Below, in pieces: positions 59,197 to 59,255 of a stretch of 64,000 nucleotides of DNA. The number at the start of each line of letters is the position of its first letter. Position 1 is the stretch's first letter. The position numbers were made by a program, and so were the translations under genes. A model generated the notes under the pieces. That model was given only the letters and a program-made list of their open reading frames with translations, was not told the DNA's origin and made no database searches. The stretch is from Gemmatimonas aurantiaca T-27 (GTDB taxonomy: Bacteria; Gemmatimonadota; Gemmatimonadetes; Gemmatimonadales; Gemmatimonadaceae): positions 2,549,646 to 2,613,645 of the forward strand of contig NC_012489.1 in assembly GCF_000010305.1 (NCBI RefSeq), written 5' to 3'.

Positions 59197-59255
59197 TCCG
59201 TGGTGATTTGCCGCCGATTGCCGCCACGTAAAACAACGAGCTAAACAGCGATAGC
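59197..59255 (+). promoter_or_regulatory. SAM-II-type riboswitch upstream of metY
   Basis: P1 pairs CGTGG (59199-59203) with CCACG (59224-59228). The loop between holds TGATTT and GATTGC, and the 3' tail holds GAGCTAAACAGCGAT. These match the conserved TGATTT...ATTGC and AGCTAAA blocks of SAM-II, in the right order and spacing. The pseudoknot forms between ATTGC (59217-59221) and GCGAT (59248-59252). It is 75 bases before the start of metY, a classic SAM-II target. High SAM would stabilise the pseudoknot and shut off the operon. Confidence 0.82.

Follow-up and report, generated by a model that had tools for sequence, protein, structure and literature searches.

A SAM-II riboswitch ahead of metY and a fused metX-hom gene in Gemmatimonas aurantiaca, and SAM-II as a guide to a candidate dehydrogenase-free homoserine route in Gemmatimonadaceae

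The stretch of the Gemmatimonas aurantiaca T-27 chromosome that was analysed here (64,000 nucleotides, positions 2,549,646 to 2,613,645 of NC_012489.1; hereafter the window) contains a genuine SAM-II aptamer in front of a two-gene operon composed of metY and a metX-hom fusion. The element is very probably a riboswitch that would switch off metY - metX::hom when S-adenosylmethionine (SAM) is plentiful.

Comparison of the whole window with all Rfam families gave two matches, i.e. one tRNA and RF00521 (SAM_alpha, SAM-II), the latter above its gathering score (Table 1). The covariance model thereby confirmed the SAM-II class that had been assigned in a preliminary description of this DNA. The sequence elements named in that description were all found in the letters; its pseudoknot pairing is treated below. 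The window element has the fold, the pseudoknot and the binding core of the class as well as its position at methionine genes. It is without part of the Rfam loop consensus, its loop being shorter than that of Rfam.

Table 1. Features of the SAM-II leader and its operon (window coordinates), and PanB-paralogue loci outside the window.
Feature	Position	Strand	Evidence or remark
RF00521 (SAM_alpha, SAM-II) match	59190-59265	+	43.2 bits, gathering score 36; E 2e-6 (window scan)
P1 of the preliminary description, CGTGG/CCACG	59199-59203 / 59224-59228	+	letters found
TGATTT; GATTGC	59204-59209; 59216-59221	+	letters found
Tail GAGCTAAACAGCGAT	59238-59252	+	letters found
P1 stem, 5' strand (CGUGGU)	59199-59204	+	Rfam alignment; 100% paired in 50 homologues
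P1 stem, 3' strand (GCCACG)	59223-59228	+	Rfam alignment and 50-homologue pairing
Start of L1 (UGAUUUGC) with conserved AUUU	59204-59211	+	A59206 and U59207-U59209 invariant in 50/50
P2a pseudoknot helix, 5' strand (CGC)	59212-59214	+	partner 59248-59250
P2a, 3' strand (GCG)	59248-59250	+	50-homologue pairing
P2b pseudoknot helix, 5' strand (UUGCC)	59218-59222	+	U-A, G-C and C-G invariant in 50
P2b, 3' strand and A-rich binding core (GAGCUAAA)	59238-59245	+	GCUAAA invariant in 50/50
Hairpin 1, GCGCCCGG/CCGGGCGC (59254-59261 / 59276-59283) and U-rich GUUCGUGUUGUU	59254-59295	+	terminator-like
GGCGGCA	59297-59303	+	invariant; GGCGGCACT unchanged in 16/16 leaders of Gemmatimonas and near relatives
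Hairpin 2, GGCACUC/GAGUGCC	59300-59327	+	over likely Shine-Dalgarno GGAG 59318-59321; -15.2 kcal/mol
metY, O-acetylhomoserine sulfhydrylase, 459 aa	59331-60710	+	start ATG 59331; TIGR01326 642 bits (cut-off 495); PF01053
metX-hom fusion, 749 aa	60707-62956	+	PF00742, PF03447; 4-base overlap with metY
PanB-paralogue loci, 29 in total (among them L183, L184, L185, L181, L186, L196, L205, L206 and L129)	L129: 11794-8269	-	

Conservation of the structure was studied in 54 distinct SAM-II aptamers gathered from the phylum, 50 of which were aligned. P1 was constant in this alignment except for its closing pair, which changes from U-G to C-G. P2a is formed by C59214-G59248, G59213-C59249 and C59212-G59250, and its outer pair was G-C in 20 homologues, C-G in 18, A-U in one and unpaired in 11. 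The pairs of P2b are C59222-G59238, C59221-G59240, G59220-C59241 and U59218-A59243. At the fifth P2b pair, C59222-G59238, C-G (19), A-U (16), G-C (11), G-U (3) and U-G (1) were all encountered and none of the 50 sequences was unpaired; 30 compensatory changes were counted at one P2b pair in these 50 related aptamers. Overall, 97.2% of the cells were paired in the SAM-II pairing versus 90.4% in shuffles, 49 cells were altered on both sides, which is above every one of 500 shuffles, and the covariation score of 0.175 was matched by none of the 500 shuffles and by no slid version. Covariation in the alignment supports the P2a/P2b pseudoknot of SAM-II. The pairing ATTGC/GCGAT, which had been put forward in the preliminary description, did not hold: only 62.8% of its cells pair, a share that shuffles also attain, and in 42 of the 50 sequences the outer A-U does not form. 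It was dropped, the alignment favouring P2a/P2b instead.

The three parts of the binding core, AUUU in L1, UUGC and GCUAAA, are present in the window and were invariant in all 50 homologues. The bases of this core that contact SAM we take to be those of crystal structure 2QWY. The AUUU of L1 provides the third strand of the SAM-II triplex (PMC5352136). SAM-V is closely similar in fold and in binding mode (PMC6061858), but the SAM-V model (RF01826), checked as the alternative named beforehand, was silent at the riboswitch locus at E up to 0.1, where RF00521 was the sole model reported, and both the three G-C pairs of P2a and the terminator-like leader point to SAM-II; the chance that the element belongs to SAM-V or to some other pseudoknot class is practically negligible. 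A degenerate aptamer that has lost SAM binding, to which the loop shorter than the Rfam consensus might point, is likewise very improbable, for a short loop is the norm among the 50 homologues and the window copy retains every position that is invariant in them.

Gene calls and profile matches agree with the earlier statement that metY and a fused metX-hom follow the aptamer. In the fusion protein a homoserine O-acetyltransferase-like domain (residues ~72-379) precedes a homoserine dehydrogenase domain (427-748), and the motifs of MetX and Hom are intact (GGSLGG, GDLLYP, GHDAFL, GCGHVG and TANK). The Hom part reached 289.6 bits with PRK06349, over the cut-off of 205. The MetX part obtained 263 bits with TIGR01392, under the cut-off of 500, and because the strict equivalog cut-offs were not reached, the MetX activity of the fusion is to be regarded as putative. 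Since the Hom domain stops one residue ahead of the stop codon, the fusion has no ACT domain. The nearest named relatives of the protein are from Gemmatimonas and from Gemmatimonadaceae metagenome-assembled genomes (MAGs). One uninterrupted frame spanning both MetX and Hom in a single alignment was found in 14 of the 24 genomes of the genus; in the genomes G054 and G078 the two genes stand side by side unfused, and genus g2 has SAM-II - metX - hom - metY with all genes separate. As metX and hom are thus adjacent but separate in relatives, the fusion most likely arose from a neighbouring gene pair. SAM-II ahead of metY, metX or hom recurs across the Gemmatimonadaceae. A Gemmatimonas-type SAM-II - metX-hom was also encountered in a record titled Candidatus Kuenenia stuttgartiensis (L090, CALQGY020000003.1), whose title suggests that the MAG was mis-binned or mislabelled.

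SAM-II expression platforms are mostly terminators (PMC2258182). The expression-platform test on the window leader revealed a terminator-like hairpin with a broken U-tract and a ribosome-site hairpin. Hairpin 1 lies directly 3' of the aptamer with a predicted folding energy of about -24 kcal/mol, and the U-tract 3' of it contains 6 U in 10; a strict terminator scan of the window leader gave no site at hairpin 1. When 57 leaders of the phylum were examined for a stem of 6 or more pairs and, behind it, 5 or more U in 10, such a hairpin with U-rich tail was present behind the aptamer in 45, versus 0-3 of 57 in each of five downstream control windows. In 16 leaders from Gemmatimonas and its close relatives, the region of hairpin 2 (59297-59327, GGCGGCACTC...GAGTGCC) has conserved arms and a loop of variable length. 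Hardly any covariation was seen in hairpins 1 and 2. Three of the invariant bases of GGCGGCACT fall outside hairpin 2; pairing with the aptamer would account for them. Instead of joining hairpin 2, the GGCGGCA segment might base-pair with the aptamer's UGCCGCC, which would open that hairpin. Complementarity between the aptamer and the 5' arm of hairpin 1 is greater inside a leader than between different leaders (none of 200 shuffles equalled it), a comparison in which relatedness is a confounder. In the minimum-energy fold the aptamer tail is paired with the U-rich stretch behind hairpin 1; this was discarded as a mechanism because the U-rich stretch persists in leaders with non-pairing tails and because the pairing would come too late to block termination. 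Upstream of the riboswitch, between it and ackA, a GC-rich inverted repeat TGACGGCCC...GGGCCGTCA followed by GTCGTTT (59075-59125) is probably the terminator of the acetate-kinase-like gene.

Several leaders of metH-type methyltransferase genes were without a hairpin of this kind and had the start codon right after the pseudoknot, e.g. GCTAAAACGCCAGGATG. The loci L009, L010, L013, L016 and L018 (also L023 and L026) have the start codon of a homocysteine-methyltransferase-domain gene directly or shortly behind the pseudoknot and no convincing terminator. The metH-type leaders suggest occlusion of the ribosome site, i.e. a translational variant beside a terminator variant in one phylum.

In the mechanism that we propose, SAM would stabilise the P1/P2 pseudoknot of the leader transcript. 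Once the aptamer is closed, hairpin 1 would form and transcription would stop ahead of metY, while in transcripts that escape, hairpin 2 would shut the ribosome site. Without SAM the C-rich strand GCCGCC of the aptamer would be free for GGCGG of hairpin 1 or for GGCGGCA at the base of hairpin 2; through this alternative pairing the operon would be expressed. The switch would set how much homoserine is supplied and turned into homocysteine on the way to methionine; threonine would be served by a separate aspartokinase-homoserine dehydrogenase and threonine synthase. The scheme builds on direct observations (the identity of the aptamer, the covariation of its pseudoknot, the content of the operon, the presence and conservation of the hairpins and a second hom outside SAM-II), to which we add, as steps that we infer from sequence, the binding of SAM, the direction of control, the use of termination and the alternative pairings. 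A switch acting on translation only, in which the SAM-bound state hides the metY ribosome site in hairpin 2 and hairpin 1 is a stable spacer, is possible though rather unlikely. It is favoured by the conserved arms of the hairpin over GGAG, by the want of a clean U-run behind hairpin 1 and by the metH-type leaders described above, whereas the position of hairpin 1 is that of classical T-run terminators in relatives and in another leader of the same genome (L002), and the frequency of the hairpin among the 57 leaders also argues for termination.

The range of the proposed control depends on what else the genome contains. It was stated previously that SAM would control the entry step of the whole branch, a claim that is contradicted by the second PF00742 gene on the same chromosome, at 1.64 Mb. 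This gene (L068) is a frame of ~984 codons that encodes an aspartokinase followed by a C-terminal homoserine dehydrogenase, with threonine synthase next to it, and none of the three SAM-II copies of the genome is near it. As the second hom is without SAM-II, SAM most likely controls only the methionine-dedicated isozyme. That entry to the entire threonine/methionine branch is governed by the window switch, as the presence of hom in the operon and a Hom domain without the ACT domain for threonine feedback might suggest, is very improbable given this separate pair of genes.

The genome is a single contig of 4,636,964 bases, and its two SAM-II copies outside the window score just under the gathering cut-off. 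One of these (L002, G000:C1:3738032; 1501-1571 and 1575-2852, + strand) has a SAM-II of 35.0 bits, a clean terminator ACCCGGCACGCGCTGGGTTTTTTGTTTT and a cystathionine gamma-synthase-like gene (TIGR02080, 561 bits; cut-off 504.6). In the other (L066, 5232-3061, - strand; G000:C1 near 2.997 Mb) SAM-II is followed by genes for an ATP-grasp protein with weak similarity to RimK and for a flavin monooxygenase of the LLM type, and an operon of the same kind with SAM-II was found in L133 (14520-16846, + strand; two genera, 75% and 72% identity). The monooxygenase resembles the dimethylsulfone monooxygenase SfnG (260 bits, under the cut-off), and the operon possibly serves sulfur acquisition under SAM control.

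SAM-II was first described in alpha-proteobacteria and then in a few other groups (PMC2258182), and metY is the core target of the class (PMC4239095). It was detected in 262 of 395 Gemmatimonadota genomes, whereas 14 control genomes gave no hit, and the open-access literature searched yielded no report of the class from this phylum. These data extend SAM-II to this phylum; the window switch is in itself a typical member of its class. The window element shares with the alpha-proteobacterial SAM-II (RF00521; metA/metX/metY) the fold, the pseudoknot, the core, the metY target and, in most copies, a terminator-like platform; it differs by its occurrence in Gemmatimonadota, a shorter L1, an extra ribosome-site hairpin and a second gene in which metX and hom are fused. 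That a SAM riboswitch controls hom is not new, because two cases have been published. In Hyphomonadaceae SAM_alpha precedes hom-metXC (PMC4239095), so that SAM-II is likewise set over homoserine dehydrogenase together with metX, but there the genes are separate, the hosts are alpha-proteobacteria and the operon is without metY. In Xanthomonas SAM-I controls a metA-metB-hom operon (PMC7270179); here too a SAM riboswitch heads a methionine operon with hom, although it belongs to an unrelated aptamer class, acts translationally and senses uncharged tRNA-fMet as well. The two hom genes of the window's genome resemble the metL/thrA split of Escherichia coli. In that organism MetJ controls metL, which encodes aspartokinase-homoserine dehydrogenase II. 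Both systems have a SAM-regulated, methionine-dedicated homoserine dehydrogenase alongside a threonine-dedicated one (for the MetL step see PMC4239095), but the E. coli regulator is a protein repressor and not an RNA, and the fusion partner is aspartokinase instead of MetX.

Because SAM-II marks methionine genes reliably in the phylum, it could serve as a guide to another type of operon, which lies outside the window. Homoserine dehydrogenase (PF00742) was absent from 56 of the 138 Gemmatimonadaceae genomes sampled, many of them incomplete MAGs, and present in all 14 controls. A second type of PanB (3-methyl-2-oxobutanoate hydroxymethyltransferase family) was found in 26 of the 138, with 64-78% identity within the type and 39-49% to ordinary PanBs. 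FastTree support for the paralogue clade was low (0.32), and the type therefore rests on the identity split and the gene context. Hom was missing in 21 of the 26 genomes with the paralogue versus 35 of the 112 without it (p = 5e-6, shared descent ignored), and among the Hom-less genomes homoserine kinase (ThrB) was present in 20 of 21 with the paralogue versus 6 of 35 without it (p = 5e-9, shared descent again ignored). Counter-cases are these six Hom-less ThrB genomes that have no paralogue, three of them of one genus, and five paralogue genomes that retain Hom. The 29 paralogue loci, many of which are cut by contig ends, have SAM-II upstream in 21 cases, an aminotransferase in 15, a threonine-synthase-like gene in 14, ThrB in 8, a MoaD-like sulfur carrier in 15, a MoeB-like (E1-like) enzyme in 14 and hom in none. 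The typical order is SAM-II, aminotransferase, PanB-like, ThrC-like, ThrB, MoaD and MoeB (L183, L184); these gene families were confirmed on representative members. In L135 (4185-7744, + strand) SAM-II is followed by metY, metX and PanB-like, the paralogue taking the place that hom has in the window operon.

On the simplest reading of these gene arrangements, the PanB paralogue would join pyruvate and a one-carbon unit to 4-hydroxy-2-oxobutanoate, which the aminotransferase would carry on to homoserine. A review describes 4-hydroxy-2-oxobutanoate as non-native, a metabolite of a cycle engineered in E. coli (PMC8879981); in the literature searched the route through it was engineered only, and no paper was found that combines PanB, 4-hydroxy-2-oxobutanoate and homoserine. 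The balance tips slightly towards the view that SAM-II marks the homoserine step of Gemmatimonadaceae, for which there would be two unrelated solutions: homoserine dehydrogenase, or the PanB paralogue (with pyruvate and methylene-tetrahydrofolate) and an aminotransferase, the latter being a natural, dehydrogenase-free pathway under riboswitch control. That the ThrC-like enzyme forms homocysteine, as the sulfur-carrier genes hint, is speculation.

In G. aurantiaca SAM would thus govern a homoserine dehydrogenase that is dedicated to methionine and fused to MetX. If the reading of the PanB operons is true, they would give bacteria that lack homoserine dehydrogenase a new natural way of making homoserine, and perhaps homocysteine as well.
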